In this document: one piece after another, positions 21,950 to 38,084 of the stretch | Numbering within the stretch: position 1 is the first letter of the stretch | How the letters are laid out: each line of letters opens with the position of its first letter | Notes under the pieces: generated by a model | The model's input: the letters and a program-made list of their open reading frames with translations, nothing else | Database searches by the model: none | What the model was told of the DNA's origin: nothing | Made by a program: the position numbers and the translations under genes | IMG/VR virus record: IMGVR_UViG_3300010885_010800 | Coordinates: 1 to 45,727 of that record | DNA length: 45,727 bases | Reading direction: 5' to 3' (one strand) | DNA from: a virus

Positions 21950-23122
21950 ATGGCCGAAGAAACGACACCAATATTAGCGGGATTTAGGGTTTCCACAACA
22001 TTTAGAGGATTGTTGCATTTTCCGCATAGTATAGACATGGCATTAGTCCAACAATTAGTATTCGACGGGTCAGGTACATCTACATCGTTATCGATAGGTG
22101 GAGCTAATAATGGAGCAACAATAACAGGTATATTAGATGTAACAGATGATACCAATATAAAAGGTAATCTATCAGTATCTAAAAATACCATTATAGATGG
22201 TGATGTTACATTGACAAATGGGGGTTTAATAAATGACGTTAAGGTGTTATCTTCTGGATCTGATGTATCAATACGATCATTGCGCACAGCGGAAGCAGGA
22301 AAACTAAGAATAAGAGATGTCGGATCAAATGATTACGAATTGATATTTGGTAATCCCGATGCTATAACGGTAAAAAATGTTTTTACTATAAAAGTCAATA
22401 GTACTACTTCGAAAAATTTATATATTAAACATAGATATGCAGAAGCAGATTTATTAGCACCATTATGGATAAATTGGACTACTGGAGAAGTTAACATAAG
22501 AAATTTAAGAGTTAGTAAAGTGGTGACAATACCAGATCCGGGAACTGTATATCCGCCCGGAAGAGATCCAGATCCACATAGAAGTGAAATCGCAATCGGA
22601 TCTATTATGATGTTTCCGTCCTTAACTATACCACCCGGATGGTTAGAATGTAATGGTCAAATATTAAATAGAGGTACATATCCCGAATTATGGGATGTCA
22701 TTTCTAATACTTATGGAGCAGGATCAGTTCCTGAAGAGTATAGAGTTCCAGATTTCCGTGGATTATTTGTTAGGGGATTAGATCATAAACGAGACGACGA
22801 AGCTACAAATTTATATCTAATTAATAGACAAGATCCACAGTCGGGACGAATTTTGGGTGCATCTACTCAATCAGATTCGATTAAAACTCACCATCACGGA
22901 ATAAGTAATACAGCATTGAATTCTGATGCCCGATGTAAATATGATGGTGGAGCAGGAGCTGGTGGAGGACCCGGAGGTCCCGTAGTAGTTGCCGTAAAGA
23001 ACAGTGCGACTGATTGTAAACAATTTATATTACAAGATTCCGCAGGATCTAATACTGGTGATACCGGAGATGTCGAAACTCGTCCTAAAAATATTGCTAT
23101 AGTATATTGCATAAAATGGTAA
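21950..23122 (+). CDS. Tail-collar domain fibre protein (gp12-like)
   Basis: A 390-residue short-tail-fibre type protein. Residues 35-170 are beta-rich repeats (GNLSVSKNTIIDGDVTLTNG) typical of fibre shafts. A phage tail-collar domain lies at about 215-275: GSIMMFPSLTIPPGWLECNG, then YPELWDVISNTYG, and VPDFRGLFVRGLD. The C-terminus contains THHHGIS (a His-rich metal-binding motif as in T4 gp12, where histidines hold an ion along the trimer axis), a Gly-rich loop, and the usual ending TRPKNIAIVYCIKW. T4 gp12 uses this region to bind the host surface irreversibly. It is shorter than gp12 (527 residues). The start ATG is behind an AATAAATA element. Confidence 0.88.
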   Translation: MAEETTPILAGFRVSTTFRGLLHFPHSIDMALVQQLVFDGSGTSTSLSIGGANNGATITGILDVTDDTNIKGNLSVSKNTIIDGDVTLTNGGLINDVKVLSSGSDVSIRSLRTAEAGKLRIRDVGSNDYELIFGNPDAITVKNVFTIKVNSTTSKNLYIKHRYAEADLLAPLWINWTTGEVNIRNLRVSKVVTIPDPGTVYPPGRDPDPHRSEIAIGSIMMFPSLTIPPGWLECNGQILNRGTYPELWDVISNTYGAGSVPEEYRVPDFRGLFVRGLDHKRDDEATNLYLINRQDPQSGRILGASTQSDSIKTHHHGISNTALNSDARCKYDGGAGAGGGPGGPVVVAVKNSATDCKQFILQDSAGSNTGDTGDVETRPKNIAIVYCIKW

Positions 23123-23129
23123 TATAAAA

Positions 23130-26100
23130 ATGAAATTTATAAAAAAACATTTACGAAGATTAAAAATTAGGAGGGGAAGTAATGAACAAAGAAAATTAAT
23201 TGTTTTTGAAGAAGGGGAACCCGTATATATAAAAGATAAAAAAAGTGTATTTATAGGAAATAATTATAAGAAAGGTGGGATATTAGTTTCGGTAAAAACC
23301 CACGAAACTTTGGCTATACAGATACCAGAATTAGCAAATACTTTTGATATAGTACATGATAGGGATAATAATGGAGGTTATCTTATAGAAAGTAATAATA
23401 ATTTAAAAGAAATATTCCCTTCGAATGATACTTTAAATAATATAAATAGAAAAATATCATATATAGATCATTTATTAGATAGATTAATAAAAGAATGTTG
23501 TAATCCAGATTTTCCATTAATAACAGATAGCGGAGAAAATATAACAATAGACGGAACCGGTGATTGGATTTCAATACGACCAAGCAAGCCTTGTCCTGTT
23601 GAAATAACAGTTCGACCACCTATACCTCCAACACCATTAATGTGGGATATGTCACCAGCGTTCATTAATACACCGGATACGGATTTTAAAGTTATTATTG
23701 GAGATTGGTTTAGTATAACATTAAGTGCAGTTGGTGCTGGAAATATTACATATCAATATTATAAAGAAACTACACCTAAACAATACGTTCCAGTACCCGG
23801 AGCTACAAATAATGTATTTATAATTCCAACTATAAATGCTACAAATTTAGGTAGATATTTATGTGTAGCGTCCTCAACACTAGTAGATTCTATAACCAGT
23901 CATACTAGAGGATTAGTAACCAATATTGTTACTTCCACTACATCACCTACAACACCTACAACACCTACAACACCTACAACACCGTCCAAGACTTGTTTAA
24001 ACAGTAGTGTATTTAATGTAGTAGATGACGATATTAATTTTAAATATGTTATTAATACCGTAACTTCTCCATGTTTAGAATTGACCAGATGTTCAACTTA
24101 TACATTTAATGTGGATGCTGGTGGTCATCCATTTTGGATTAAAACTGCCGCAGTTAATGGATCCGGATCTACTTATAATAATGGAGTTACCAATAATGGA
24201 GTTGATGGGGTAGGACATATAACATTTAAAGTTCCTTTTGATGCACCAAATACTTTATTCTATGCTTGTGGTAACCATAACGGGATGAATGGTACTATTA
24301 ACATTATAGGAACCGGGACATCATGCTCACCTACACCCCCAGTACCACCTACAACCGCACCTTTAACATGGTTTACTCAACCAGTAGATACCTCATCAGC
24401 ATTAGCAGGGACGGCAACATTTGATGTTAAAGCTGTCGGAGGAACAGGACTTATATCATATCAATGGTATAAATTACAAGGTACACCACCATCTTATACA
24501 AAAATAACAACAAATACAACGGCAGTATTTAAAACCTTAGATATATCGTCCGTGAATAATTCAGATATTACGGATTATAAATGCGTAGCATCAACAACGA
24601 CAGAAACTATTACTAGTAATAGTTCCAAATTAACTTTAACAACAACTGTTACACCACCAACAATTAGTAAGCCACTTCCAGACACAACAGATACCAAAGC
24701 ATTTCCCGGATATACTTTATACACTTCGAAAAAATTCAAAATATATACCTTAATAAAAGACTCCGCATCGTTTCCTTCTGGTGTACTAGATGTTGTTAAA
24801 GATGCAGTAAATAAATGGAGCAGTGTATTAAAAGATACAGCACTTCCAGATATAACTCAATCAACGGAAGTTACAAACTCTACAGGAGCAGAGATTAATC
24901 AATTAAAATTTCCTAATGATGGATATGTATTAGTAGTAGATAATCTAGCTATGAAAGATGCATCTGGAAAGCCTGATATGGGTACGTTAGCATTTGCAGG
25001 ACCAACACAAGTAAGATCTAATATACCTACTAGCAAATATCAACTACTACCACATACAGGTAGATGTATAATTAATTCAAATACTCAAGATTCAGCAAGT
25101 AAAAATATAATAGGAATTGGGGGAAAATCTGCATTATATTCAATAATACTACATGAATTAGGACATGCATTAGGTTTGGGTACTTTATGGTTTTTAAGAA
25201 ACGGTCCCGGCTTTTTAGCTAGAAGTTTTATAGTGGGAGCGGGTGATAATTCCACCAATACACATGGAGTATTAGGAAATATATTTTATACTATAGATAG
25301 AGGTCCATCTAATAATAGGGCTCAAACTGATGTAATAGATCCATCTTCATTGACGGATAGTCTACTATCTTCTAGAGGAGATGCCGCATTTACACATGCG
25401 TGGAATGGATTTTCTATAGTAGGAAATACATCTAAAGCAGTTGAGGCATATAATACAGCATTTGGACTAAGTCTAACCGCAATACCATTAGAAAATGCAA
25501 TGGGTTCTGGATCATATGGAGGACACTGGGCAGAAGGAAGGGAGCCAGATGGATTATTAAATACTTCTACTGGTCCAATTATAGATCCTGCTGGATCAGA
25601 CCAAAGACAATATTACGGTGTAGTATCACCCGGAGCACCAGCATTACAAGACGAATTGATGACTCCTAGAACACCCATATTTACTAGTGAACTGCCGTTA
25701 TCAAAAATTACCATAGGTGCATTAGAAGATTTAGGATGGGATGTGGATTATTCTCAAGCAGATAATTACGAACCATTGGTGCATTCTATAAGATATGCTA
25801 AAAGTGGTAATACTTTTGAGCTTAAGAAAAATAATTTTGGATCTTATTTTCCGTGTCATGATTCCGTAACAAATCCAGCTAGTACAAGTCATTCAGTTAA
25901 ATTACATTTAAGAAGAGGTACTAAATATAAATTTATAAACGAAACCGGAGAAACTTTATCTATACGACAACTAAATGGAACTCCTATTACTGCTGGAGTA
26001 ACAACTAGTACGGTGGGAGGAATAAATTTTCTCGAATATGACGTACCGTTAACATTAACAGTACTTACTATATTAATAGTAAGTACAGCATTTAGCAAAA

Positions 26101-26135
26101 AACCTAACACTGGAGTATTATTTGCAATAGGTTAA
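23130..26135 (+). CDS. Multidomain tail-fibre adhesin: Mtd-like N-terminus, Ig-like, cupredoxin-like, metzincin protease
   Basis: A 1001-residue protein. Residues 1-60 (KIRRGSNEQRKLIVFEEGE, then FIGNNYKKGGILV) match the N-terminal domain of phage tropism determinants, shared with four other proteins here. An Ig-like domain (about 170-265) is followed by a TPT linker (272-287) and a cupredoxin-like domain (288-397: YTFNVDAGGHPFWIK, then ITFKVPF and FYACGNHNGMNGTI). A second Ig-like domain (410-507) has the YQWYK strand. A zinc protease domain spans about 536-887: HELGHALGLG with His675, Glu676 and His679, a likely third ligand His799 in GGHWAE, and Met844 in DELMTP as the Met-turn, then ITIGALEDLGWDVDYS. 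The wide spacing resembles leishmanolysin-type (M8) enzymes. The virion may therefore carry a protease that cuts host surface proteins. The C-terminus is unassigned. Confidence 0.82.
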   Translation: MKFIKKHLRRLKIRRGSNEQRKLIVFEEGEPVYIKDKKSVFIGNNYKKGGILVSVKTHETLAIQIPELANTFDIVHDRDNNGGYLIESNNNLKEIFPSNDTLNNINRKISYIDHLLDRLIKECCNPDFPLITDSGENITIDGTGDWISIRPSKPCPVEITVRPPIPPTPLMWDMSPAFINTPDTDFKVIIGDWFSITLSAVGAGNITYQYYKETTPKQYVPVPGATNNVFIIPTINATNLGRYLCVASSTLVDSITSHTRGLVTNIVTSTTSPTTPTTPTTPTTPSKTCLNSSVFNVVDDDINFKYVINTVTSPCLELTRCSTYTFNVDAGGHPFWIKTAAVNGSGSTYNNGVTNNGVDGVGHITFKVPFDAPNTLFYACGNHNGMNGTINIIGTGTSCSPTPPVPPTTAPLTWFTQPVDTSSALAGTATFDVKAVGGTGLISYQWYKLQGTPPSYTKITTNTTAVFKTLDISSVNNSDITDYKCVASTTTETITSNSSKLTLTTTVTPPTISKPLPDTTDTKAFPGYTLYTSKKFKIYTLIKDSASFPSGVLDVVKDAVNKWSSVLKDTALPDITQSTEVTNSTGAEINQLKFPNDGYVLVVDNLAMKDASGKPDMGTLAFAGPTQVRSNIPTSKYQLLPHTGRCIINSNTQDSASKNIIGIGGKSALYSIILHELGHALGLGTLWFLRNGPGFLARSFIVGAGDNSTNTHGVLGNIFYTIDRGPSNNRAQTDVIDPSSLTDSLLSSRGDAAFTHAWNGFSIVGNTSKAVEAYNTAFGLSLTAIPLENAMGSGSYGGHWAEGREPDGLLNTSTGPIIDPAGSDQRQYYGVVSPGAPALQDELMTPRTPIFTSELPLSKITIGALEDLGWDVDYSQADNYEPLVHSIRYAKSGNTFELKKNNFGSYFPCHDSVTNPASTSHSVKLHLRRGTKYKFINETGETLSIRQLNGTPITAGVTTSTVGGINFLEYDVPLTLTVLTILIVSTAFSKKPNTGVLFAIG
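23944..23990 (+). repeat. Thr-Pro linker repeat, copy B
   Basis: Identical over 47 bases to 19157-19203. It codes the TPTTPTTPTTPTTPSK linker between the first Ig-like domain and the cupredoxin-like domain. The flanking protein domains are unrelated between the two genes, so the repeat sits exactly at a domain border. Confidence 0.9.
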
Positions 26136-26146
26136 TTAAATAAATA
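26132..26146 (+). promoter_or_regulatory. TTAATTAAATAAATA element at fibre-cassette border
   Basis: The 15-base string is exactly repeated at 29836-29850, and a shortened form occurs at 33267 and 36104. It contains AATAAATA (one mismatch to TATAAATA) and ends two bases before the ATG at 26149. It overlaps the stop codon of the protease-fibre gene. The constant position just before starts is more like a translation element than a standard promoter. Confidence 0.45.
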
Positions 26147-26148
26147 TT

Positions 26149-26334
26149 ATGACAAGAGACGAAATAAGACAATTAATACATGATAAAAATAATGGATTAA
26201 TTGAAATGACAGAATCACAAATTCAAGAAGCCTTAAAATATTATACTCAATTAGATATAGACGGTATGGTAAATATTCCATTTGATTATAGTTCATGTTT
26301 TAAGTGTAAATGTGATGAAAAAAGCACATCATAA
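26149..26334 (+). CDS. Small protein with C-terminal Cys cluster
   Basis: A 61-residue protein of unknown function between two fibre genes. Residues 1-35 are helical and charged (TRDEIRQLIHDKN). The C-terminus contains C50-x2-C53-x-C55 in SSCFKCKCDEK, which could hold a metal ion, although three Cys alone are not a standard zinc finger. It is probably real because it fills the gap between genes, has a normal start behind a TTAAATAAATA element, and no competing frame is better. It may be a fibre-assembly helper, but this is a guess from position. Confidence 0.6.
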   Translation: MTRDEIRQLIHDKNNGLIEMTESQIQEALKYYTQLDIDGMVNIPFDYSSCFKCKCDEKSTS

Positions 26335-26355
26335 TTAGATAAAACAAAAATAGTT

Positions 26356-26363
26356 AATAAATA
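26356..26363 (+). promoter_or_regulatory. AATAAATA element before fibre-adaptor gene
   Basis: The core sits within a longer TTAATAAATAAATTT tract and ends five bases before the ATG at 26369. It belongs to the same series as the elements at 21937, 26132, 29836, 33267 and 36104. The 34-base gap that holds it is otherwise featureless. Confidence 0.4.
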
Positions 26364-26368
26364 AATTT

Positions 26369-26953
26369 ATGGGAACGAAAATAGTAGAATTACCAGTAAT
26401 ACCTAGTCCAATAGGAGACGATGATATAATTCCAATTTCTAAGATTAGTAGTCTTACACGTAATACATATAAAACGACAGTAAGTGAATTAGGAATAGCT
26501 ATAACTGCTGATGTCAATACACGAATTAATAATCTCACAACGGCAACAGGATCATATTTACCACTAGCCGGTGGTACTATGAGCGGAAATATAAATTTAG
26601 ATGGCAAAAAACTTTTAAAATTCTCTGGTGAGATTAAAGTAGTAACGGCTGATACTACTTTAACTCCAGAATATAATGGATGTATTATATTAGTAGAAAA
26701 AGGACCAAGAATTTTACCGGATGATAGAGTTTTATTAAATATTACAAAAGGTTCTTTGCCTGTAGGTTTTAATGCAGTTGTAATACAAACTGGAGCTATA
26801 CAAGCAAAAATATCGACATTAGCAGCAGATGTATTTATTGTAAATGCAGATGATTCATTATCATCAAGACAACTATATTCTCAAATAAATATATGTGTAA
26901 TAAAATCTACAGCATTAGCTGATGTTGTTTGGATATCCGGAGATATAATTTAA
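26369..26953 (+). CDS. Tail-fibre adaptor/shaft protein (paired with downstream propeller fibre)
   Basis: A 194-residue protein. Its opening, DDDIIPISKISSLTRNTYKT followed by TVSELG, is the usual fibre N-terminal pattern, and YLPLAGGTMSGNI (about 69-81) is the classical fibre-shaft repeat. The C-terminal 100 residues (LTPEYNGCIILVEKG, then GSLPVGFNAVVIQTG, ending VWISGDII) are clearly related to the C-terminus of the protein at 33284-34255, which ends MLISGDLI. Both are followed within four bases by a gene for a propeller-like protein. The pair therefore looks like a two-gene fibre: a shaft or attachment protein plus a host-contact head. It lacks the Mtd-like N-terminus of its relative. Confidence 0.72.
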   Translation: MGTKIVELPVIPSPIGDDDIIPISKISSLTRNTYKTTVSELGIAITADVNTRINNLTTATGSYLPLAGGTMSGNINLDGKKLLKFSGEIKVVTADTTLTPEYNGCIILVEKGPRILPDDRVLLNITKGSLPVGFNAVVIQTGAIQAKISTLAADVFIVNADDSLSSRQLYSQINICVIKSTALADVVWISGDII

Positions 26954-26956
26954 GTT

Positions 26957-28093
26957 ATGTTTGCATCACCTACAAGTAGAACTATTTATAAAAAAAAGAA
27001 GAGAAATGTATTAGATCTATTTTCGGTAGAAGGGGAAGGTGGATATCTGAGTAATAATTATACATTCATGTTTAAATCTTCTGCGTTTTTTAATAATAAT
27101 ATAAAACCCACAGTAGAAGCTATAGTTTCCACGGGACATCATACTAAATCTCTTACATTTGGATCCGATACTTTTTATTATATAGATAATATATTAAGAA
27201 TATCATTAGGAAATAATAATGCATGCGTTATGTATAGAGATGGAAGTGTAGATATAGGAGGATTAAATACCTCATTTCCATATTTAGGTTCTGTGATGTA
27301 TAGTATTAGAGATACATTTACTCCTAGTACATATGCTACAGGAAATACTCAATATAAACAAATGCTATTAATGGAAAATGGCGATCTTATATTAATAGAT
27401 TGTTTTAATAAACTAAATACTACGTTATTAACAAAAGTTGATGAGTTTTTAACAAAAAATCAAGCTCATAGATGTGATGCAATAGTTGCACTAAAAACAG
27501 GAGAATTATATCATGTATGGATAGGACCATCTCCAGTTGGACCGAGTGCCGATCCAGATGGTAATGGAACAGATAGCGGAGTAGTATTAATACCGGGAAT
27601 ATTAAGAAAGGATGTATTATTTTGTTCATTAGGAGATGCACCGGGAATGGCGACAGTTTGTTTTAAAAAAGATAAACGAAATCTGTATAATTTTATAAAA
27701 GGTGCTGGTTTAAATTTTAAAATAACAGGTGTACAAACTACACCAATTGCTAAAATGGCACTCCCAGCGGGAGAATATTATGTAGATGGAATGGCTCAAG
27801 AATTTAATGGATTATTTTTAACAAATAAAAGAGTTATATCTAAAGATTCTGGAATTACATATGGTGCTACAGTAATGACGGATCATTGGACATTTGATCA
27901 ATCAAGTACTACAGGTTTGTTTGCAAAAAAAATAGCTACACCTACATCATATTCTATGATTATAGAAGATATTTTCGGAAAATTTTGGTTATGTGATAAT
28001 CCTAGTAATGTTAATCAACAAAAACCTGTAAGGTATACATTTTTTGATAATTTAAAAACCCATTTAGATCCAATAAGAAAAGCCATGAGATAG
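26957..28093 (+). CDS. Propeller-like fibre head protein (partner of the upstream adaptor)
   Basis: A 378-residue protein, three bases after the adaptor gene. It has a basic start (IYKKKKRNV) and then a repetitive beta-rich body with short blades, such as FYYIDNILRISLGNNNACVM, YRDGSVDIGG, and MLLMENGDLILIDCF, resembling degenerate RCC1-type repeats. It is related along its length to residues about 235-578 of the protein at 28103-29839: both have a GGY start, SSAFF or TSAFF, a KNQAH or KNKSH turn, and an ending of the form LKxxLDxIR. I infer a host-recognition head domain. There is no signal peptide or enzyme motif. Confidence 0.65.
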   Translation: MFASPTSRTIYKKKKRNVLDLFSVEGEGGYLSNNYTFMFKSSAFFNNNIKPTVEAIVSTGHHTKSLTFGSDTFYYIDNILRISLGNNNACVMYRDGSVDIGGLNTSFPYLGSVMYSIRDTFTPSTYATGNTQYKQMLLMENGDLILIDCFNKLNTTLLTKVDEFLTKNQAHRCDAIVALKTGELYHVWIGPSPVGPSADPDGNGTDSGVVLIPGILRKDVLFCSLGDAPGMATVCFKKDKRNLYNFIKGAGLNFKITGVQTTPIAKMALPAGEYYVDGMAQEFNGLFLTNKRVISKDSGITYGATVMTDHWTFDQSSTTGLFAKKIATPTSYSMIIEDIFGKFWLCDNPSNVNQQKPVRYTFFDNLKTHLDPIRKAMR

Positions 28094-28102
28094 AAATATC
28101 AT

Positions 28103-29839
28103 ATGATTATCAAAAAAATAGCTAAAATTAAATTAGAAAGGGGCAAAGAAGAAGAAAGACTAGATAAAGTTTTCCGGGAATCTGAATTAATATATAGTAT
28201 TGATAAAGAACGTATGTTTATCGGAGATGGGATAATAAAGGGAGGTATATTAGTTTCGAATCGAAATTATGTAGTAAATACTGTTAAAAATTTATATGAT
28301 GTACCATCAAATTCTTATTATGGAGATATTATAAATGACAATTCTGTAAATAAAACCTACATAATAGGTTACGATACAGACGGAAAAACCTTAAAGATGT
28401 ATCTAATCTCTGATATGGATTGTTTATATAAAGTAGCTAAAAGATTAGATGATTTATTAAATGAAATATTACCATTAACGGCATGTTTCGAGGAGCCGTG
28501 TGACGAACCGGTAGTACCTCCACCAAAATCTTTAGTATGGAAAACTGAACCTACATCTAAAACAATAGCAATAGGAGATAATATATCATTAGATGCTATA
28601 GCAGATGGAACGGGAACCATAAGTTATCAGTGGTACAAATATAATTCAGTATTTTATGATGCAATAGCCGGTGCCACCGGAGAACATTTAATAATAAATC
28701 CTATTAAAAATGCAGATTTAGGAAGATATATTAGTGTTGCTACTTCAACCACTAGTGATAGTATTACTAGCCGCGAAGCTATATTAGATAATCATCCATC
28801 ATTTATTGATGGTGTATATCAAATAAATGGAGGATATATACCAGAAACTTTTGTGTTTTCATATAAAACTTCTGCATTTTTTGATAAGTCTTTATTAACA
28901 CAGATACAAGCGATGGTAGTAGATCCATTAAAAATAGTAACTACTATTATAAATGGAAATACTTTACAATATATTGATAATCAGGCACGATTATCCTTCC
29001 GAAGTGCTGGAAGTTTTATTTTTAATTATGATGGAACATTTGATAGTGGTAAGAAAAAATATTTAAACGATTTTACACAAAATGTATTTAAAGATATTAT
29101 AGATGTATATATTCCAAGTTATGGAAATAATATGGCAATATTATTAAATAATGGAGACTTACTTAAATTTGATAACATATTTAAAGCTAAAGATTTCCAA
29201 ACCTATAAACCATCTGTATTAGCACATAATGTAGATAGAATATTATCTAAAAATAAATCACACACTTCTTCCGATTTTGTATTTGCAACTAAAAATGACG
29301 AAGTATTCTTTTCAGATATTAATACATTTACTATGGGCATATCCGGAATTTCCGCTTCGGAAATTCTATTTTCTTGTAATGGACTTAGTCCGAATATTTG
29401 TACCAACGCATCATATAACTATAGAAAAAAACTCGGAGATAGAACAGGTTTTGTTTTATGTAAAAAATCAGAGTTGCAAAAACTATATGGGGTAATGGTA
29501 ACACCCAGTAACAACACTGCAATATTTCCATTACCAGAGTATCAATTAACAGGATCCGAAATATATTTAGATGGAGCTGCGGGAGAATGCGGGATATTTC
29601 TTGTGACAAATCAACATCTGTTAACAAGAGATTATTATGAGCCATCTGGTATAAGAGATACTCCATATGATAAAAAAGGAAAAATTGCTGGGCATACTTC
29701 ATATACTTATTTGGTATTAGGAGAAGATAATAAGTATTATCTCTTTCCCGGAACATACGGTGAATCTTCTGCAAAACCAGCATTAATATATTTCAACAAA
29801 TTAAAACCTATATTAGATGTAATAAGAGGGTCACCTTAA
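28103..29839 (+). CDS. Fibre adhesin: Mtd-like N-terminus, Ig-like domain, propeller-like head
   Basis: A 578-residue protein. Residues 1-60 (IKLERGKEEERLDKVF, then MFIGDGIIKGGILVSN) form the shared Mtd-like attachment domain. Residues about 60-130 hold YGDIINDNSVNKTYIIGYD, very close to the same segment in the 29854-33258 protein. An Ig-like domain lies at about 145-235 (ISYQWYKYN, then NADLGRYISVATSTT), the same type as in the protease fibre. Residues 235-578 are homologous to the whole protein at 26957-28093. It thus joins in one chain what the previous pair makes as two. A single frame with no slippery site is seen. Role: probable receptor binding. Confidence 0.75.
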   Translation: MIIKKIAKIKLERGKEEERLDKVFRESELIYSIDKERMFIGDGIIKGGILVSNRNYVVNTVKNLYDVPSNSYYGDIINDNSVNKTYIIGYDTDGKTLKMYLISDMDCLYKVAKRLDDLLNEILPLTACFEEPCDEPVVPPPKSLVWKTEPTSKTIAIGDNISLDAIADGTGTISYQWYKYNSVFYDAIAGATGEHLIINPIKNADLGRYISVATSTTSDSITSREAILDNHPSFIDGVYQINGGYIPETFVFSYKTSAFFDKSLLTQIQAMVVDPLKIVTTIINGNTLQYIDNQARLSFRSAGSFIFNYDGTFDSGKKKYLNDFTQNVFKDIIDVYIPSYGNNMAILLNNGDLLKFDNIFKAKDFQTYKPSVLAHNVDRILSKNKSHTSSDFVFATKNDEVFFSDINTFTMGISGISASEILFSCNGLSPNICTNASYNYRKKLGDRTGFVLCKKSELQKLYGVMVTPSNNTAIFPLPEYQLTGSEIYLDGAAGECGIFLVTNQHLLTRDYYEPSGIRDTPYDKKGKIAGHTSYTYLVLGEDNKYYLFPGTYGESSAKPALIYFNKLKPILDVIRGSP

Positions 29840-29850
29840 TTAAATAAATA
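29836..29850 (+). promoter_or_regulatory. TTAATTAAATAAATA element at fibre-cassette border
   Basis: Exact copy of the 15-base element at 26132-26146. It overlaps the stop codon of the preceding fibre gene and ends three bases before the ATG at 29854. Identity between two borders with different flanks suggests either shared function or a trace of recombination at the border. Confidence 0.45.
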
Positions 29851-29853
29851 ACA

Positions 29854-32800
29854 ATGATAGATAGAAGGATGGGTCCAACTTTAGTAAGAAGAGGAACGGA
29901 TACAGAAAGAAAACTTTTTGTAATCGAAGAGGGGGAATTTATACATGTAACTGATAGAAAACGATTATTTATTGGTGATGGAACTACTGAAGGTGGGATA
30001 TTGGTTGCTAACAAAAATTGGATATCAGGTTCATTGGATACAACAACGATACCATTATACGAAGCGATGCATGGAGATTTGATCTTTAATTCGTTAGTAA
30101 ACAAAACATATATAATCGGATATGATTTAGACGGAGAAACCTTAATACCTATACAAATATGTAGTTTAGGTCTTTGCGAAGATTACAACACAAAAATAGA
30201 TAGTCTATCATCAAAATTCATATATATAAAACCATGTTTAGAAGAACATAAACGTAGAATAGATCTTATTAAAAGTGGTGGTGGTGGTACTGGTACTGGT
30301 GGTACTGGTACTGGTGGTACAAAACCTACGACACCTAGTGTTCCACCAATTTCTAATCCAACAGGCATTACTGCGGGTTTTTGCTTTCCACAAGGACTAG
30401 AATATTATTTTGACTTATATGTAGCAGATACATCTAACAATTCTATTCGTAATATAACAAAAGGTGGATCAGTTACAACTACATTATCTACATATGGTAA
30501 ACTTGATGGGGTAACAAACACTAAAATATTAAAGTATCCAACAGATGTTACATTTGATAATAATGGAGATATGTATGTAGCTAATAGCGGAAATCATAAT
30601 ATCATAAAAGTATCCAAAGGAGAAGCGACAACATTTGCTGGACTTTCTGGAATACAAGGATCTGTAGATGGAACAGGAACAGTCGCCAGATTTAATTATC
30701 CATCTAGTATTAAATATAATTGGACCACAGGAGATATTATTGTATTAGAATTGTATACTGTTCGTAGTATAACTAAAACTGGTATAGTAACAACGATTGC
30801 TGGAATGAATATGATGGCTAATTTAGCAGATGGTAATGGAATCAATGCAAGATTTCAATCCCCTAGATTTTTAGACATAGACAGTAAAGGAGATATATAT
30901 GTTACAGATAGTTGTACAATTCGAAAAATAAATATAAAAACCAAAGAAGTAACTACAGTAGCAGGAAAAATAGGAAATCCCGGAGAGGTCGATGGGAATC
31001 TCGTAGATGCCAGATTCGGATCTTTAGCAGGAATAACAATAGATACTGCGGGATCTGTCTATGTAGCTGATGCTCAATACAACACTATTCGTAAAATATC
31101 TTCATCGGGTATAGTATCTACTATAGCAGGAACTTCGAAAAAATCTGGAAAGGATGATGGCATGTTAAATATTGCTAAATTTTACATGCCATCTGGGATA
31201 GCAATAGACGATAAAACTGGCGATATATATATTTCAGACATGGAAAATTGTAATATTCGTAGAATAACTGAATCTGGTACTAATTCAGTAGCGGGATTAC
31301 CTGTTACAGTCAATACTAATGGATATACTTCAACATATGCAGGGATTGGAAAATGTGGATCTTCGGATGGTGATATAATAATACCAGCAACACCACCAGT
31401 ACCCCCATCACCACCCTCAACAACTCCGATAGATCCTTCTACCGTAAAAGATACAGGGATGTTATTTTTTGAAACCCAACCAGATCCGATTACTTCAAAC
31501 ATAGCAGAAGGTGATAATATAACTATTAATAGTACTATATGGGATTCGGTTTCGGTAAATTTAATACAAACTCCAAATACAAAAATAACAACTACTACAG
31601 AATGTAATTTACTTAGATTTGATTCTAGTAATAATATTATAACCTACGATGCTGCGGTATTCAAATTTAATATTATACAATCAATAAATCCAGTGATATT
31701 TAAGCCCCAATTGTTGGTAGTAAATCCTAAAATATCAGATGCGGGAAGTTATAAAATAGTAAGTAATGTATATTACAATACGGTTCCGGGAAATTTAAAG
31801 ACTATAGTTAAATCCATAACTAGTAATACAATTTTAATAAATATATCAGCAAAATCTACTAAACCTGTATTTGTAATACAGCCAAGCTCCCAAAATACCT
31901 TAAGTTTAGTATCTAAATCTTTTACAGTTTCAGCAACAGGTAGTAATCCGTTAGTATATCAATGGTTTAGAGATAAAATAAAACTTACAGGAGAAACTAG
32001 TCTTACTCATACTGAAATTAGTCCAACTAAATCAGTAACATTAATGTGTCAAGCATCCAATGCTGGTGGTATAACAGATAGTAGTGATGCAGTATTAACG
32101 ATTTTAACCGCACCGATTATAATAACTCAACCGGTATCTACTCAGACGTTATCGGTGGGTACAGCATTCACGGTATCAATAGTGGCACTAGGAGCTTCTA
32201 CATTAACCTATCAATGGTTTAAAAATGGTGTAATAATTGCCGGTGCAACAACAGACACATTTAACATTGCTTCCGTTGCACTAACAGATGCTGCAACTTA
32301 TACTTGCAAAGTCACAAATTCTTTGGGTAATGCAACAAGTTCTAATGCTATATTAATAGTTACTGTTGGCCCCAAAATAACAACTCAACCTACAGCAACA
32401 CAAACTTTAAATGTTGGTGTGGCATATTCAGTGTTTGTTAATGCTACTGGTACTGCTACATTAACGTATCAATGGTCTAAAAATGGCACACCTATTACAG
32501 GAGCAACCGGAGGTACATTTAACATTGCTTCCGTTGCACTAACAGATGCTGCAACTTATACTTGTAAAGTTACAAATTTAGTAGGTAATGTAACGAGTTC
32601 TAATGCGGTATTAATAGTAAAAGCTGTAGCTCCGACTATAACTGTACAACCAACGTCAACACAAACTTTAGTAGTAGGAACTAAATTTTCGGTTTCTATA
32701 ACAGCGGATGGTACACCAACTTTAACGTATCAATGGTCTAAGAATGGGACACCAATTGCCGGTGCAACAACAGACACATTTAACATTGCTTCCGTTGCAC

Positions 32801-33258
32801 TAACAGATGCTGCAACTTATACTTGTAAAGTTACAAATTTAGTAGGTAATGTAACGAGTTCTAATGCGGTATTAATAGTAAACAGCCCGACATTTAATCC
32901 TACAATTTCTAATAGATGTCAAATAGATGTAGAAGCAGTGCTTAAAGCAGCAGGATGGAATGGTGTAGTCAGTTCATTAGTTGGATATACACTAATCATT
33001 TCAGGAACAGTGGGAGGATGTTGTGTCGGAGGAAAGTTACAAAATACTTTTAATTGGGGATCTTTAGTTCCAGATGGAAAATCCTTTACGTTAGATATGC
33101 ATTTAAACAATGGTGCTACGTTAAATGGTAATAATGAAACAATACCCGGAGGTCTATCTATGGATAGTGGGGGAACAATCGAATTGAATGGGCTTAAATA
33201 TCTAGGAATCTTTAATGTTAATGGAACATTTAATATTGGAAACGCTCCAATCTGTTAA
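29854..33258 (+). CDS. Giant fibre adhesin: Mtd-like N-terminus, NHL propeller, Ig-like repeat array
   Basis: A 1134-residue protein. Residues 1-60 are the shared Mtd-like domain (LVRRGTDTERKLFVIEEGE, LFIGDGTTEGGILVANKNW). A Gly/Thr/Pro linker (about 141-170) leads into an NHL propeller (about 175-490) with clear blades such as DVTFDNNGDMYVANSGNHNI, SKGDIYVTDSCTIRKI, and DTAGSVYVADAQYNTIRKIS, each followed by TxAG. After a Pro-rich linker come about five Ig-like modules (535-1010); the last three are near-identical (YQWSKNGTPI, then DAATYTCKVTN). The C-terminal 120 residues (ISGTVGGCCVGG, LHLNNGATLNGN-like strands) look like a beta-helical tip. NHL and Ig domains bind proteins or sugars, so this is a likely long host-contact fibre. 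It lacks any enzyme motif. Confidence 0.82.
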   Translation: MIDRRMGPTLVRRGTDTERKLFVIEEGEFIHVTDRKRLFIGDGTTEGGILVANKNWISGSLDTTTIPLYEAMHGDLIFNSLVNKTYIIGYDLDGETLIPIQICSLGLCEDYNTKIDSLSSKFIYIKPCLEEHKRRIDLIKSGGGGTGTGGTGTGGTKPTTPSVPPISNPTGITAGFCFPQGLEYYFDLYVADTSNNSIRNITKGGSVTTTLSTYGKLDGVTNTKILKYPTDVTFDNNGDMYVANSGNHNIIKVSKGEATTFAGLSGIQGSVDGTGTVARFNYPSSIKYNWTTGDIIVLELYTVRSITKTGIVTTIAGMNMMANLADGNGINARFQSPRFLDIDSKGDIYVTDSCTIRKINIKTKEVTTVAGKIGNPGEVDGNLVDARFGSLAGITIDTAGSVYVADAQYNTIRKISSSGIVSTIAGTSKKSGKDDGMLNIAKFYMPSGIAIDDKTGDIYISDMENCNIRRITESGTNSVAGLPVTVNTNGYTSTYAGIGKCGSSDGDIIIPATPPVPPSPPSTTPIDPSTVKDTGMLFFETQPDPITSNIAEGDNITINSTIWDSVSVNLIQTPNTKITTTTECNLLRFDSSNNIITYDAAVFKFNIIQSINPVIFKPQLLVVNPKISDAGSYKIVSNVYYNTVPGNLKTIVKSITSNTILINISAKSTKPVFVIQPSSQNTLSLVSKSFTVSATGSNPLVYQWFRDKIKLTGETSLTHTEISPTKSVTLMCQASNAGGITDSSDAVLTILTAPIIITQPVSTQTLSVGTAFTVSIVALGASTLTYQWFKNGVIIAGATTDTFNIASVALTDAATYTCKVTNSLGNATSSNAILIVTVGPKITTQPTATQTLNVGVAYSVFVNATGTATLTYQWSKNGTPITGATGGTFNIASVALTDAATYTCKVTNLVGNVTSSNAVLIVKAVAPTITVQPTSTQTLVVGTKFSVSITADGTPTLTYQWSKNGTPIAGATTDTFNIASVALTDAATYTCKVTNLVGNVTSSNAVLIVNSPTFNPTISNRCQIDVEAVLKAAGWNGVVSSLVGYTLIISGTVGGCCVGGKLQNTFNWGSLVPDGKSFTLDMHLNNGATLNGNNETIPGGLSMDSGGTIELNGLKYLGIFNVNGTFNIGNAPIC
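30286..30320 (+). repeat. 15-bp Gly-Thr linker repeat
   Basis: Two exact copies of GGTACTGGTACTGGT (30286-30300 and 30301-30315) plus a partial third. It codes a Gly/Thr linker between the Mtd-like N-terminal part and the NHL propeller, again at a domain border. Copy number could change by slippage. Confidence 0.85.
32235..32306 (+). repeat. Ig-module repeat, 72 bp identical to 32754-32825
   Basis: This part of Ig module A is identical over 72 bases to the corresponding part of module C (32754-32825). After it the two diverge (TTGCAAAGTC against TTGTAAAGTT). It codes IAGATTDTFNIASVALTDAA and the start of the TYTC strand. Confidence 0.88.
32515..32621 (+). repeat. Ig-module repeat, 107 bp identical to 32776-32882
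   Basis: This part of Ig module B is identical over 107 bases to module C (32776-32882), a distance of 261 bases (87 codons, one Ig module). The identity includes third codon positions, so duplication or conversion was recent. Confidence 0.9.
32754..32882 (+). repeat. Ig-module C: mosaic of modules A and B
   Basis: The first 72 bases match module A exactly (32235-32306) and the last 107 match module B exactly (32515-32621), with an overlap of 50 bases common to all three. The pattern reads as a crossover or gene-conversion product between the two older modules. Confidence 0.85.
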
Positions 33259-33266
33259 TCTTATAT

Positions 33267-33278
33267 ATTAAATAAATA
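33267..33278 (+). promoter_or_regulatory. ATTAAATAAATA element before adaptor-fibre gene
   Basis: Twelve bases identical to the core of the elements at 26132, 29836 and 36104. It ends five bases before the ATG at 33284, inside a 25-base gap. Confidence 0.45.
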
Positions 33279-33283
33279 ATATC

Positions 33284-34255
33284 ATGGCAACTCCTACTAC
33301 AATAGATTCAATAATAAAATTACGGAGAGGATCGGATTCCGATAGGAGAACGATAATCTTTGATAATGGAGAAATAGTTTTTTCGGATGATAACAAAAAA
33401 ACTTTTATAGGAGATGGATCAACACGGGGAGGAATTGTAGTAGGAAATCATTCTACGATAGGAACTACACCCAACCCAAGTGCAGTAAAAGGAGATACTT
33501 TTTATGATAGTATAAATTGTTTAACTTATATATTATCATCTGAATCAGGACCAGATAATATATTAAATTATGCAAGAATAAATCCTGTAGTAGATAATAT
33601 TACTTTAAAATCTATAAATGGAGTTATTTCTATAAATCAGACATACTTTAATAATTCTGCTACTGGATTTGTTCATTTATCCGGAGACCTTATGTATGGG
33701 TTTTTAACTTTACATAGTAAACCTGTAAATGACATGCATGCAGCAACTAAAGGATATGTTAATGACGGAGTATCCGGTTTAAGTGCTAGTATAAAAGGTT
33801 TATTAGCAACTGATTATGTACATATTAGCGGAGATAACATAACAGGACCTATAAAAATTTCTAATACACTCGAAGTTACGGGAGGCACAAATTTTAAAAA
33901 TGAAGTACAATTTAATGATAATTTTATTAAAAGATTTAAACCCGTAGTAAAAATTATAGATTTAAATACTATTAGTGATACACACGTTTTAACTCCAGAT
34001 GATAATGGATGTATATTAATAATACAAGCTACTGATATTTGTTATATAGCAATACCAAATGGATTACCAATAGGATTCAATGCATTAGTTGTTAATAAAA
34101 GTACATTTACATTATCGTTTAAACCACAAGTATCAATAGCTGGGGTAGATATAGTAAATGTATATGGAAAAAATTCTATAGGATCCCCATATGGAGTCTG
34201 TAATATGGTTTCTATAGATAATGATCAGATGTTAATATCGGGTGATTTGATTTAA
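33284..34255 (+). CDS. Fibre adaptor with Mtd-like N-terminus (paired with RCC1-like head)
   Basis: A 323-residue protein. Residues 1-60 (IIKLRRGSDSDRRTIIFDNG, then TFIGDGSTRGGIVVGN) are the shared Mtd-like domain. Residues about 125-200 contain fibre-shaft patterns: FVHLSGDLMYGFLTLHSKPV followed by AATKGYV, and YVHISGDNITGPIKI. The C-terminal 100 residues (HVLTPDDNGCILIIQATD, GLPIGFNALVVN, ending LISGDLI) are homologous to the end of the protein at 26369-26953. It is followed after two bases by an RCC1-like propeller gene. It likely anchors that head protein to the virion, with the Mtd-like part as the socket. Confidence 0.78.
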   Translation: MATPTTIDSIIKLRRGSDSDRRTIIFDNGEIVFSDDNKKTFIGDGSTRGGIVVGNHSTIGTTPNPSAVKGDTFYDSINCLTYILSSESGPDNILNYARINPVVDNITLKSINGVISINQTYFNNSATGFVHLSGDLMYGFLTLHSKPVNDMHAATKGYVNDGVSGLSASIKGLLATDYVHISGDNITGPIKISNTLEVTGGTNFKNEVQFNDNFIKRFKPVVKIIDLNTISDTHVLTPDDNGCILIIQATDICYIAIPNGLPIGFNALVVNKSTFTLSFKPQVSIAGVDIVNVYGKNSIGSPYGVCNMVSIDNDQMLISGDLI

Positions 34256-34257
34256 TT

Positions 34258-36102
34258 ATGTACGGATTACCAATTTTTAGAAAAGAGACAATATCAAATC
34301 CTCCACCACCATGTCCAAGTTTATTTGGATGTTGCGTAGGTCCCGGATGCCCACCTCCATTTTTAAAATCAGCACTTAAATTAGTGCAAATGGTAGAAGG
34401 ACATTATTGTATAATTATAGGAGCAGACATGAAAACGATTGCTGCATGGGGTGGAGCCAATAGATTTGGTCAAACCGGAGTAGCATCAAACCCCAAAAAG
34501 CCTACAAGTGCAATAATAAATTGGAAATCTGGGTTACCACAATATATATCTAAAGTATTTTCACTTGGATATAATAATTTTACAATATTTCGAACAGAAG
34601 ATAATCAATTATACGGAACAGGAAATAATAATAATTATATATTAAATAAACCGAAACGAATAGTATATCCCACATATAATCAAATTGCAGATAAAGTTAT
34701 AGATTTTTGTCCTAGTTATAATAGTTATTTATTATATGTAAAATCGAATGGAAAAGTATATGGTTTAGGTGCTTCTAATGTAGGATTCGGATTTCCGACT
34801 TCTGGAATGAAAGATTTAACCAAAGATGATGGAGCTGATTCGAATTATTTGGGAATAGATAATGCGACAAAGGTATTTACTACCTCACCACTTGGATCTA
34901 ATCATAAATCTTTTATTCTCAAAAAAAATGGAACCGTAATGGCATGTGGATATAATACAGATGGATGCTTAGGAGTTAATAAAACTGACGCAATTGTAAA
35001 TGTATGGTCAGAAGTAAAGACTTCGGTAGACGGAGGTGTAACATTTCATACATTATCGGGAGTAGTAGATGTAATAACATCTAATTCTGTAACAGCAGGA
35101 GGAGCAAACGGATCAACAGAAAGATGGGCTGGAGGTGGTCCAAGTGGTCATATGTCTAGTTATTTTTTAACAAATGATGGTTCTGTATATACATGTGGAA
35201 ATAATAAATTTGGTCAATTGGGGATAGGTTTATCAAATACCACTACTAGGAATTATGCATCCAAAACCACAATATCCAAAGGATCATCTATATGTACTAC
35301 TGCTGGTGGTACTAGTGTTTTAGTAACAACTACAGACGATAAAGTTTATACTTGGGGTAATAATCAATGGGGCCAGTTAGGTCATGGAACTAGAACAGAT
35401 ACATTTACATGTACTCAAGCTACATTTCCTTCGAAAAAAATATTAATGGCACATGGTGGTGGTATGTACGGAGTAATAAATGGTGCGTTTTTAGTGGTAT
35501 GCGCAGACGGGACGGTATATGGAGTAGGATTTAATGAAACCTTTGCATTAGGAATAACAACAGCAGGAGTACCTAATGCAGGTCCTATAACAACATTCAC
35601 AAAAAATGAATATTTTGGAGAAAATCCAATTCAAAATCAAGATCCCGAAAGATATCCATTAATATTATCTGGTAGTATTGTTACGACAGATTTTAAAATA
35701 AGAAGTGCTCAATTATTTACTAATAAAGTTGTACTGGGAACAACAGAAGCTGTATATGTAACAAAAGGAATGTCGGTTAGTGGTATTGGAATCCCTGCTG
35801 GCACGGTAGTAAATTTAGTAGATTTAAAAACCAATGAAATATTATTATCTAATCCTGCTACAGTGACTAACACTAATGCAACATTAAGATATGATAAAGT
35901 TGTTAAGGTATATCAAGCAGATTTATGCGGATATGGAACTGAAATGGCACAAAAGGTAGTAACATCGGATGGAGATTTATATATGAGTGGATGGAATCAA
36001 GATTTGACTTCATATTTTACTGATGGATGGAATTTTAATTATTATGTAGCAACACAAAATGTACAAGTTCCTACGTTTTTCGATGCCAAAAAATTTCTAT
36101 AG
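34258..36102 (+). CDS. RCC1-like propeller fibre head protein
   Basis: A 614-residue protein. It begins with a Pro/Cys-rich segment (PPPPCPSLFGCCVGPGCPPP), then has RCC1-type blades: IAAWGGANRFGQTGVASN, VYGLGASNVGFGF, VMACGYNTDGCLGVN, VYTCGNNKFGQLGIG, VYTWGNNQWGQLGHG, and VYGVGFNETFALGI, covering about residues 60-450, enough for a seven-bladed propeller with inserts. Blade VYTWGNN-GQLG-G is the eukaryotic-style RCC1 signature. A beta-rich insertion (about 480-540) precedes a last blade (DLYMSGWNQD). Two bases separate it from its adaptor. RCC1-like heads occur in phage fibres and probably bind a surface protein or glycan. Stop codon is TAG, unlike most genes here. Confidence 0.8.
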   Translation: MYGLPIFRKETISNPPPPCPSLFGCCVGPGCPPPFLKSALKLVQMVEGHYCIIIGADMKTIAAWGGANRFGQTGVASNPKKPTSAIINWKSGLPQYISKVFSLGYNNFTIFRTEDNQLYGTGNNNNYILNKPKRIVYPTYNQIADKVIDFCPSYNSYLLYVKSNGKVYGLGASNVGFGFPTSGMKDLTKDDGADSNYLGIDNATKVFTTSPLGSNHKSFILKKNGTVMACGYNTDGCLGVNKTDAIVNVWSEVKTSVDGGVTFHTLSGVVDVITSNSVTAGGANGSTERWAGGGPSGHMSSYFLTNDGSVYTCGNNKFGQLGIGLSNTTTRNYASKTTISKGSSICTTAGGTSVLVTTTDDKVYTWGNNQWGQLGHGTRTDTFTCTQATFPSKKILMAHGGGMYGVINGAFLVVCADGTVYGVGFNETFALGITTAGVPNAGPITTFTKNEYFGENPIQNQDPERYPLILSGSIVTTDFKIRSAQLFTNKVVLGTTEAVYVTKGMSVSGIGIPAGTVVNLVDLKTNEILLSNPATVTNTNATLRYDKVVKVYQADLCGYGTEMAQKVVTSDGDLYMSGWNQDLTSYFTDGWNFNYYVATQNVQVPTFFDAKKFL

Positions 36103-36103
36103 A

Positions 36104-36115
36104 ATTAAATAAATA
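36104..36115 (+). promoter_or_regulatory. ATTAAATAAATA element directly before a fibre start
   Basis: The same 12-base core as at 33267-33278. It ends one base before the ATG at 36117, too close for a T4 late promoter to make a message containing that ATG with any leader. This site argues for a role in translation initiation, or for leaderless transcripts. Confidence 0.45.
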
Positions 36116-36116
36116 T

Positions 36117-37331
36117 ATGGCTAACTTTTTTAATAATTCCGAAACAGTAAATTCCGTAATAAAAGTAAGACGAGGACCAGAAATAGATCGAGTAACTAAT
36201 ATATATGAAGATGGGGAATTAATTTATTCTAATGATAAAAAGCGTTTATTTGTTGGTGATAGTGTTTCTGATGTAGGTACATTCGGAGGAATTTTAGTAG
36301 GTAACAAGACATGGATAACAGACAGTTTTGATAAATTACCTAATATAGAAAAGTATGATTTAGTATATAGAACAGATTTGCGTGGATTATTTATATTAAA
36401 CGGAGATGTAATACTAGATCCTGCTAGTTATATTTTGATAGGAGGATCCCAGATAGTATTAAATAATCTTCCTGCTGTTGCTAGTTTTACATTACCACCT
36501 GCAAATAATAGTTCATTAGGAGGAATAATAGTAAAAGAGGGTCTTGCCGTAGATTCTTTTGGGGTAACAACCGTTGATATTGATACTAACACCATGCAAT
36601 TAGTAGGAAATAAAATATCCGTAAAATCTAGCATGTTAGGCGGAACTACAACTAGTACGGCTTCATATACTGTCGATGGTATATTAAGAGTAGAACAAAA
36701 TAAAGGGTTGGCAATTGATAGCGGTAAATTAACCTTAAAGATAGATAATAAGACTGTTAAATTATCAGCAAACGGTCTAGATCCCTCGATATTATATGTT
36801 GATGGATCTGGGATTACGCTTCCAATTGCAGCATCAAGTACGTTAGGAGCTATTAAAGTTGGTGATGGATTGTCGGCCACTAATGCGGGCGTATTAAATT
36901 TAAAAAAAGCATCTTCTGGGGATCTAGGAGGAATAAAAGTTGGTTCTGGATTAGATATTGATCCTACTGATGGTATGTTGAGTGTAGAAACTCTAAGCTC
37001 TGGAACTAATACTGTTGGGTTATCAACTAATGGGTTTACCTTTTTGCCAAATGGATTTATTATGCAATGGGGATCATTTAACACTGGAGTAGGAGTATCT
37101 TCAGTAAAGGTAGATATTAAATTTCCTTTAGCATTTCCTACACAATGTTTTAGTTTCACTTCCAGTATAGGTGTACATATTGTTGATTATGATGCTACAC
37201 CAAATTACAGACAAGATAGACAATCTATAAGTTATGGAATAGCATCGTTATCTGGGGTGGAAGGGCAAGCATTTTTGGAAAATAACACCTCGGATGACAG
37301 GAGAGTGCAATGGTATGCTATAGGAAATTAA
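36117..37331 (+). CDS. Tail fibre with Mtd-like N-terminus and gp53-like receptor-binding C-terminal domain
   Basis: A 404-residue protein. Residues 1-65 (VIKVRRGPEIDRVTNIYEDG, then LFVGD and GGILVGNKTWI) are the shared Mtd-like domain. Residues 120-305 are shaft repeats with the STLGAIKVGDGL and GDLGGIKVGSGLDI motifs usual in fibres. The C-terminal 100 residues (PNGFIMQWGSFNTGVG, IKFPLAFPTQCFS, ending VQWYAIGN) match a widespread fibre-tip domain of the putative tail fibre gp53-like type, which forms trimers and binds receptors. It is the last of the five Mtd-like proteins and closes the fibre operon; the next gene belongs to nucleic-acid metabolism. Confidence 0.83.
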   Translation: MANFFNNSETVNSVIKVRRGPEIDRVTNIYEDGELIYSNDKKRLFVGDSVSDVGTFGGILVGNKTWITDSFDKLPNIEKYDLVYRTDLRGLFILNGDVILDPASYILIGGSQIVLNNLPAVASFTLPPANNSSLGGIIVKEGLAVDSFGVTTVDIDTNTMQLVGNKISVKSSMLGGTTTSTASYTVDGILRVEQNKGLAIDSGKLTLKIDNKTVKLSANGLDPSILYVDGSGITLPIAASSTLGAIKVGDGLSATNAGVLNLKKASSGDLGGIKVGSGLDIDPTDGMLSVETLSSGTNTVGLSTNGFTFLPNGFIMQWGSFNTGVGVSSVKVDIKFPLAFPTQCFSFTSSIGVHIVDYDATPNYRQDRQSISYGIASLSGVEGQAFLENNTSDDRRVQWYAIGN

Positions 37332-37370
37332 TATTCTTGCAAACTTTTTAATTTGTGGTATGATGGTCAA

Positions 37371-38084
37371 ATGCCTGTAAAACTAGACCACGATACGCAT
37401 GTATATACAAACACCGAAACTGGCGAGAATTATACTAGTGTAACGACTTTAATAGGAACCTATAAAAAACCTTTCGACAAAGATAGATGGAGTAAAGTTG
37501 TCGCTCAGAGAGAGGGTGTATCACAAAATGAAATCCTAAATAAGTGGAGTAATATCACTGTTACTGCTCAGAATAGAGGAACTAATGTTCATTTGGTGAT
37601 GGAAAATTACGTAAAAGACAAAAAAATTGAAAAGGGGTACGAAGAATTGATCGATTCTTTCGTGAAAAAAACTAATGGAGTTATTTTACCAAATTCTAAT
37701 ATCCTTAGTGAAAAATTGTTATATTCTCACGAATATAAACTAGCAGGAATGGCGGATCTAGTAGTAGAAAATAATAACATCTTTTATATCTTAGATTTTA
37801 AGACTAACAAAAAGTTTAATTATATTAATAAGTACAATGATTACTTCTATGAACCTATCGATTATCTTCCTCAATGTGAATTTACTACATATTCGATTCA
37901 ATTGTCTATTTATGCATGGATGCACGAACAATTGACGGGAAAAAAGTGTGGAGGATTGAAGATATTCTATCTTCGGGAATTTACCGACAAAACATTTTGG
38001 CAGGAGATCCCATGTCCATACATGAAAGCTTCGGTAGTAGATATTTTAAATAATAAAAAAGCAAAAGATATGTCATCTACTTGA
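37371..38084 (+). CDS. PD-(D/E)XK superfamily nuclease (Cas4/RecB-like)
   Basis: A 237-residue protein from the ATG at 37371; the TTG at 37353 would add six residues and is less likely. The motifs of RecB/Cas4-type exonucleases are visible: NRGTNVHLVME with His74, a Glu at about 114, AGMADLVVE with Asp129, ILDFKTNK with Asp142 and Lys144, and SIQLSIYAWM with Gln177 and Tyr181. These enzymes cut DNA with two metal ions, often 5'-3' on single strands, in recombination or repair. No Cys cluster for an iron-sulphur centre is visible, unlike Cas4. It may act in DNA degradation or recombination during replication. It lies 39 bases after the fibre operon and starts a new functional block. Confidence 0.83.
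   Translation: MPVKLDHDTHVYTNTETGENYTSVTTLIGTYKKPFDKDRWSKVVAQREGVSQNEILNKWSNITVTAQNRGTNVHLVMENYVKDKKIEKGYEELIDSFVKKTNGVILPNSNILSEKLLYSHEYKLAGMADLVVENNNIFYILDFKTNKKFNYINKYNDYFYEPIDYLPQCEFTTYSIQLSIYAWMHEQLTGKKCGGLKIFYLREFTDKTFWQEIPCPYMKASVVDILNNKKAKDMSST

Follow-up and report, generated by a model that had tools for sequence, protein, structure and literature searches.

A row of Mtd_N-type sockets with exchanged heads as a putative multi-adhesin cassette of an uncultured T4-like virus lineage

The 45.7-kb virus record IMGVR_UViG_3300010885_010800 (IMG/VR; all 45,727 nucleotides (nt) are referred to as the window) encodes relatives of gp25, gp6, and gp44, and is therefore T4-like; the gp44 of the window and its closest named relatives share only about 35% identity. 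We analyzed a cassette of forward-strand genes located between a baseplate-region gene (20015–21931) and a PD-(D/E)XK exonuclease gene (37353–38084). Both are also on the forward strand and form conserved borders, the former being found at the same place in relatives. Five open reading frames (ORFs) of the cassette begin at 23130, 28103, 29854, 33284, and 36117, as stated in a preliminary description of the sequence. Their products, numbered here as slots 1 to 5, start with a common domain of the Mtd_N type, the socket. Beyond these five, the cassette also includes two head genes, 26957 and 34258, as well as 26369, an adaptor gene whose product does not start with Mtd_N.

Slot 1 (23130–26135) consists of the socket (23130–23537; residues 1–136, an Mtd_N-fold domain plus a helix) fused to an Ig domain, a cupredoxin-like domain (24051–24308; residues 308–393), another Ig domain, and a metzincin-like region (24675–26132). 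It is preceded by a gene for a gp12/collar-type short-fiber protein (21950–23122; Pfam Collar, E 2.6e-17), putatively the first gene of a unit with slot 1, and followed by a small ORF of 61 amino acids (aa; 26149–26334). The adaptor (26369–26953) starts with MGxKIxxLP, carries a C-terminal module related to that of slot 4, and has a separate protein as its head (26957–28093), of the type that the preliminary description took for a propeller. Slot 2 (28103–29839) combines the socket with an Ig domain and a head related to 26957, and slot 3 (29854–33258) with NHL repeats, an Ig array, and a C-terminal domain. In slot 4 (33284–34255), the socket is joined to a head-bearing adaptor module, and the head is a separate RCC1-type propeller (34258–36102; Pfam WD40_RLD, 7e-53). 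Slot 5 (36117–37331) is formed by the socket, repeats, and a gp53-like tip.

Across the first 65 to 68 residues of the five adhesins, 12 alignment columns are invariant. All ten pairwise local alignments of the N-termini scored far above background (Z 15.8–23.7; in every pair, none of 2000 shuffles matched the real score). The N-terminus is thus common to the five proteins, as had been proposed, and does not divide into different folds. Within the window, blastp linked the sockets mostly at E 1e-8 to 1e-22, the weakest links reaching 1e-3 to 1e-5 in one direction. Pfam Mtd_N (PF18454) matched each of the five singly and weakly (E 0.18 to 2.7e-5, with 0.18 for slot 2), and a DNA-level search brought two of the five above the curated cut-off. 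When the family was widened to 28 cassette N-termini, 25 of them matched at E ≤ 0.01 (best 2.8e-9). The structure model of the slot-1 domain (residues 1–136) had a predicted local distance difference test score (pLDDT) of 84. In a blind Foldseek search of the PDB with this model, the top five matches were Mtd variants (E 1.7e-3 to 4.5e-3; probability 0.99–1.00), and phage hyaluronidases were among the weaker matches ranked below. Template modeling (TM) scores to the Mtd variants were low (0.30); modeling an extended, trimer-forming domain as a single chain may account for this. A viral structure library yielded 17 matches at E ≤ 1e-3, the best of which was to a protein annotated as Mtd_N from an uncultured phage. 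No true relative of the socket emerged when its sequence was compared to the PDB. The Mtd-like N-terminal domain of the preliminary description is therefore supported by both profile and fold.

Homologues of the 20015 protein were found at eight other virus loci with 56–62% identity, and at several further loci with 38–39%. Relatives of 21950 and 20015 were detectable only with alignments as query: single-protein queries against viral contigs gave no matches, and no relative of 20015 was found among named phages or species genomes. In these relatives (loci designated by L numbers), the same slot row lies between 20015/21950 and the exonuclease. Slots 1–3 only are present in L032 and L033, and the distant relatives L008, L030/L034, and L074–L076 have two slots, flanked by the same genes wherever the locus extends to both borders. 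In L006 (3019–6775), three additional collar-domain proteins and a glycine-rich protein are inserted among the slots.

We then placed the sockets in maximum likelihood trees, built on 72 columns. With 38 socket domains, slot 1 (8 rows; support 100/98), slot 4 (4 rows; 100/96), and slot 5 (4 rows; 96/88) formed single clades, and one clade for slots 2 and 3 was not rejected (approximately unbiased test, p-AU 0.36). The four slot labels needed three changes on this tree, which is the minimum, compared to a mean of 13.9 for shuffled labels. A second tree with seven added rows, including the more divergent L073–L075, again needed three label changes and supported slot 1 (99/96), slots 2/3 (91/90), and slot 5 (83/87). 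The sockets comprise four classes (slot 1, slots 2/3, slot 4, and slot 5) whose order is kept across phages, with slots 2 and 3 representing one duplicated type. The idea of one type of socket for all five proteins consequently holds only for slots 2 and 3, as slots 1, 4, and 5 are separate clades kept in position. Since the slot labels change a minimal number of times and the heads vary, the sockets are conserved by position and the heads are not.

In all seven relatives showing slot 1 (L005, L032, L033, L035, L036, L039, and L040), it is a headless protein of 128–158 aa, and only in the window does the frame extend into the Ig, cupredoxin-like, Ig, and metzincin-like domains. The adaptor with its MGxKIxxLP start is the gene after slot 1 in relatives, and its head is a separate 26957-type protein (window, L036, and L006), a collar domain (L033 and L039), a gp53-like tip (L032), or, in L035, a metzincin-like domain with 38% identity to that of the window's slot 1 (E 1.6e-67). 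Slots 2/3 of the relatives combine Mtd_N and Ig with varied heads. In slot 4, the Mtd_N protein is an adaptor whose head is encoded by a gene of its own, of the RCC1 type in the window, L006, and L035 and of a different type in L036. By direct reading of the sequence, RCC1 is also found on slots 2 and 3 of L013/L035. Slot 5 carries repeats and a gp53-like, collar, or glycine-rich tip. Homologues of 26957 occur in L036 (59%), L006 (52%), and, partially, L073; those of the RCC1 head 34258 in L006 and L035 (51–53%) and L073 (36%). A different combination is seen in L073 (8264–9361), where a slot-5-type N-terminus (42%, E 2e-18) is joined to the 26369 adaptor module (35%, E 1e-24) and a 26957-type head (39%, E 8e-62) comes next. 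Heads are thus exchanged, changing from one slot to another and switching between a fusion and a gene of their own. This substantiates the proposal of a multi-adhesin cassette with a shared attachment-type domain and swapped heads. The five heads had also been described as unrelated, which does not hold for all of them: the head of 28103 is related to the separate protein 26957–28093 (26% identity, E 2e-21), the C-terminus of the slot-4 adaptor to 26369–26953 (28%, E 1e-7), and Ig domains are common to 23130, 28103, and 29854.

The slot-1 head of the window has a metzincin signature, comprising HExxH-x2-G (HELGHALGLG), a distant third His about 120 residues further on (GGHW), and a Met-turn (ELMTP), an arrangement that we take to resemble M8-type metzincins. 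The region is 41% identical to L013 (2426–3823), where the metal-ligand and Met residues are kept. Family matches were weak (Matrixin, 0.25; NF038122, 0.001 for the L013 homologue), a sequence comparison to the PDB gave no match, and the structure model was poor (pLDDT 33). When relatives were sought in phages, species genomes, and viral contigs, only the L013/L035 contig was recovered. Regarding the virion-borne protease activity proposed earlier, the motifs and their conservation in L013 speak for it, but a confident family, PDB-sequence, or fold match is missing. We consider a metalloprotease the likely, albeit unproven, identity of this head. In L035, a 60-aa ORF likewise follows the protease gene. 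As a candidate for a conserved partner (inhibitor or chaperone), the 61-aa ORF at 26149 was rejected, since its similarity to the L035 ORF is at chance level (1030 of 5000 shuffles were as good). The domain at 24051–24308, presumably of the cupredoxin type, shows on direct reading a His...Cys-x2-His-x2-Met pattern with apparently complete type-1 copper ligands, and matches the C-terminus of phrog_677 (baseplate/fiber connectors; E 2e-17).

The T4 late promoter reads TATAAATA at −13 to −6, with CTAAATA in phage Aeh1 (PMC1524935). As exact TATAAATA showed no enrichment in the window, we scored its useful core, TAAATA, within 22 nt upstream of starts. Late-promoter-like motifs TAAATAAAT precede the small ORF 26149 (26137–26145), the adaptor 26369 (26358–26366), slot 3 (29841–29849), slot 4 (33269–33277), and slot 5 (36106–36114), all on the forward strand. 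Including relatives, TAAATA lies upstream of 7/8 collar genes, 8/8 adaptors, 9/12 genes of slots 2/3, 4/4 of slot 4, and 4/4 of slot 5, compared to 0/8 for slot 1, 0/7 for the second genes in two-gene modules, and 2.1% of background ATGs; this contrast is exploratory, as the gene classes were set after viewing the upstream sequences. Two of the three extra collar genes in L006 also have their own motif. The pattern suggests the units collar plus slot 1, adaptor plus head, slot 2, slot 3, slot 4 plus head, and slot 5. The start codon follows TAAATA at a distance of exactly 5 nt in 9 of 12 motif-bearing genes of the window (e.g., starts 7160, 12798, 16322, 21950, 26369, 33284, and 36117) and in 46 of 76 in the G020 contig (L033 and L049–L058), compared to 0.1–0.35% of background ATGs; T4 and S-RS29 mostly show a spacing of about 12–29 nt. 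Shine–Dalgarno-like sites are few (12/231 genes). Given the 5-nt spacing and the T4 start site, the start codon would therefore be the first transcribed base, and leaderless late mRNAs are apparently a genome-wide feature of the lineage. A gp55-like gene is present in a 236-kb relative. The gp55-like late sigma gene at L048 (280–1782; G020 contig near 104749) encodes 500 aa with an apparent intein-like insert that starts with CVDEETEAL and ends with YVYITGN before S (Pfam Intein_splicing, E 7e-6, below cut-off).

Taken together, we assign a probability of roughly two in three to the reading that this cassette serves host adsorption in an uncultured lineage of T4-like myoviruses, with four socket classes, swapped heads, joint late transcription, and products on the same virion. 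It comprises the five adhesin genes and the adaptor-and-head pair between the baseplate and exonuclease genes; each adhesin begins with an Mtd_N-fold, putatively trimer-forming domain that may dock to the baseplate or a neighboring fiber. Each socket class holds its place in the order, while the distal heads (RCC1, NHL, 26957-type, Ig, collar, gp53-like tip, and metzincin-like) are replaced or moved. Late in infection, T4-type late promoters probably drive joint transcription of the modules, whose products would be mounted on the same virion and equip it simultaneously with several tools for binding or surface digestion. The shared fold, the slot classes and their order, the movement of heads, and the placement of the motifs are observed; what we infer is where in the virion the products sit, what they dock to, and that they are mounted together, bind receptors, and act as a protease in the case of the metzincin-like head. 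Several points weigh against this reading. In the second tree, which warns of long branches, slot 4 is no single clade but split by the divergent L073 row, and the support of slot 5 drops from 96/88 to 83/87 with the divergent phages added; the trees have only 72 columns and several long branches. Slot 2 of the window (28103) has no TAAATA upstream and would share the transcript of the adaptor unit, and just one other phage was found with a metzincin-like domain. Furthermore, slot-specific clades could record vertical inheritance of old tandem duplicates that use the same docking sites.

The latter point leads to a different explanation, in which the five Mtd_N domains are interchangeable, competing for one baseplate port and giving a random mixture per virion, and the slot sequences are remnants of old tandem duplications. 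The fold and key residues are indeed the same in all slots, and slots 2 and 3 are of one type and probably use one common port. However, slots 1, 4, and 5 are distinct and ordered although the baseplate protein is only about 60% identical between phages, and the headless slot-1 proteins of seven relatives suggest a connector role and not a competing adhesin. We therefore regard full equivalence as unlikely. Location at another site, with part of the cassette (the slot-4/5 pairs and the Ig and RCC1 proteins) on neck whiskers or the head, appears quite unlikely: Ig domains match Hoc-like head-decoration families, and wac adjoins gene 12 in T4, but Mtd_N, collar, and gp53-like domains belong to tail fibers, and the cassette directly follows the baseplate and gp12-like genes.

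Alternate expression of the adhesins had also been suggested. A virion would then carry one kind only, with phase variation or diversity generation as the mechanism. The sole argument for this is the general precedent of Mtd. The strongest inverted repeats over the cassette have imperfect arms of 21–37 nt, and neither a recombinase nor a reverse transcriptase was seen among the window proteins scanned, which cover part of the ORFs of a fragment. Because most modules have their own late-promoter-like motif, in one direction, no recombinase was found, and the inverted repeats are weak, joint late expression on one virion is likelier than switching, which we consider highly improbable. A more specific version of the host-adsorption reading is tentatively put forward: the four classes might be fixed positions on a hetero-branched apparatus, a plug-and-socket board built on Mtd_N with a headless Mtd_N connector in most members, and most head modules autonomous, leaderless late-promoter cassettes, the connector of the window having gained a metzincin-like head. 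If so, modules could be inserted, fused, or lost without disturbing their neighbors, and a protease would sit at the base of the fiber array.

Regarding other genes of the window, a large multi-domain glycosyltransferase (GT) is encoded next to the cassette (39200–42073; GT group 1, DUF6625, DXD sugar transferase), with a nucleotide-diphospho-sugar transferase nearby (42082–42927). A 703-aa protein with collagen triple-helix repeats lies on the reverse strand (43002–45113; Pfam Collagen, 1.9e-41), and an 1106-aa protein in the gp7 position (9473–12793) has a PKD domain and weak propeller matches.

Mtd is the target of a diversity-generating retroelement, which varies the C-type-lectin head of a single protein. 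The Mtd of Bordetella phage BPP-1 (PF18454) belongs to the same socket family and fold, located N-terminally, and has a receptor-binding C-terminal part. Unlike BPP-1 Mtd, the window cassette has several slot classes with swapped non-lectin heads; for tropism switching of the BPP-1 type, no lectin-C head or reverse transcriptase was found in the proteins scanned from this incomplete genome. The T4-like genomes of T4, S-RS29, ACG-2014i, Pelagibacter phage Mosig, DLP6, and Mel-JY01 have the gp25/gp6/gp44 relatives in common with the window, and T4 and S-RS29 also the T4-type late-promoter motif, but a socket-profile search of their whole records detected no socket (0/6). One match each was obtained in Aeromonas phage MQM1 and Stenotrophomonas phage RAS14.

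The closest parallel in design comes from phages with several receptor-binding proteins. In the branched TSP1–4 complex of Ackermannviridae, polysaccharide-recognizing tailspikes dock by T4 gp10-like XD (XD2/XD3) and TD1 domains (PMC11414711). The two systems have in common that N-termini with fixed roles are conserved and C-termini are exchangeable; the tailspikes are assembled together, as the adhesins of the window would be. In contrast to Ackermannviridae, docking in the window would fall to Mtd_N, and the heads comprise propellers, Ig arrays, collar/gp53 tips, and a metzincin-like domain; no gp10-like domain was detected in the ten cassette proteins with Pfam and PHROGs, a search that included no dedicated XD/TD model. 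The Klebsiella jumbo phage phiKp24 has 14 hyperbranched depolymerase fibers docked by T4gp10-like domains; many fibers per virion graded by N-terminal length and one primary hub are features that the lineage of the window would share; unlike for the window cassette, no shared Mtd_N socket is described in the sections of the phiKp24 report considered (PMC9700779). A modular multi-adhesin design is hence known, and what differs here is the docking fold and the readable slot rules. The relatives form a graded series of two to five slots in which the growth of a multi-receptor apparatus can be read, it follows directly from the slot classes which heads are to be expected where, and the headless slot-1 protein offers a concrete candidate for the connector. 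If the metzincin-like head is active, a protease would be displayed for surface digestion, a chemistry unlike that of the usual polysaccharide depolymerases. As far as the sections considered describe them, the multi-adhesin phages dock via a T4 gp10-like XD (PMC11414711; PMC9700779), whereas the lineage described here apparently does so via Mtd_N.

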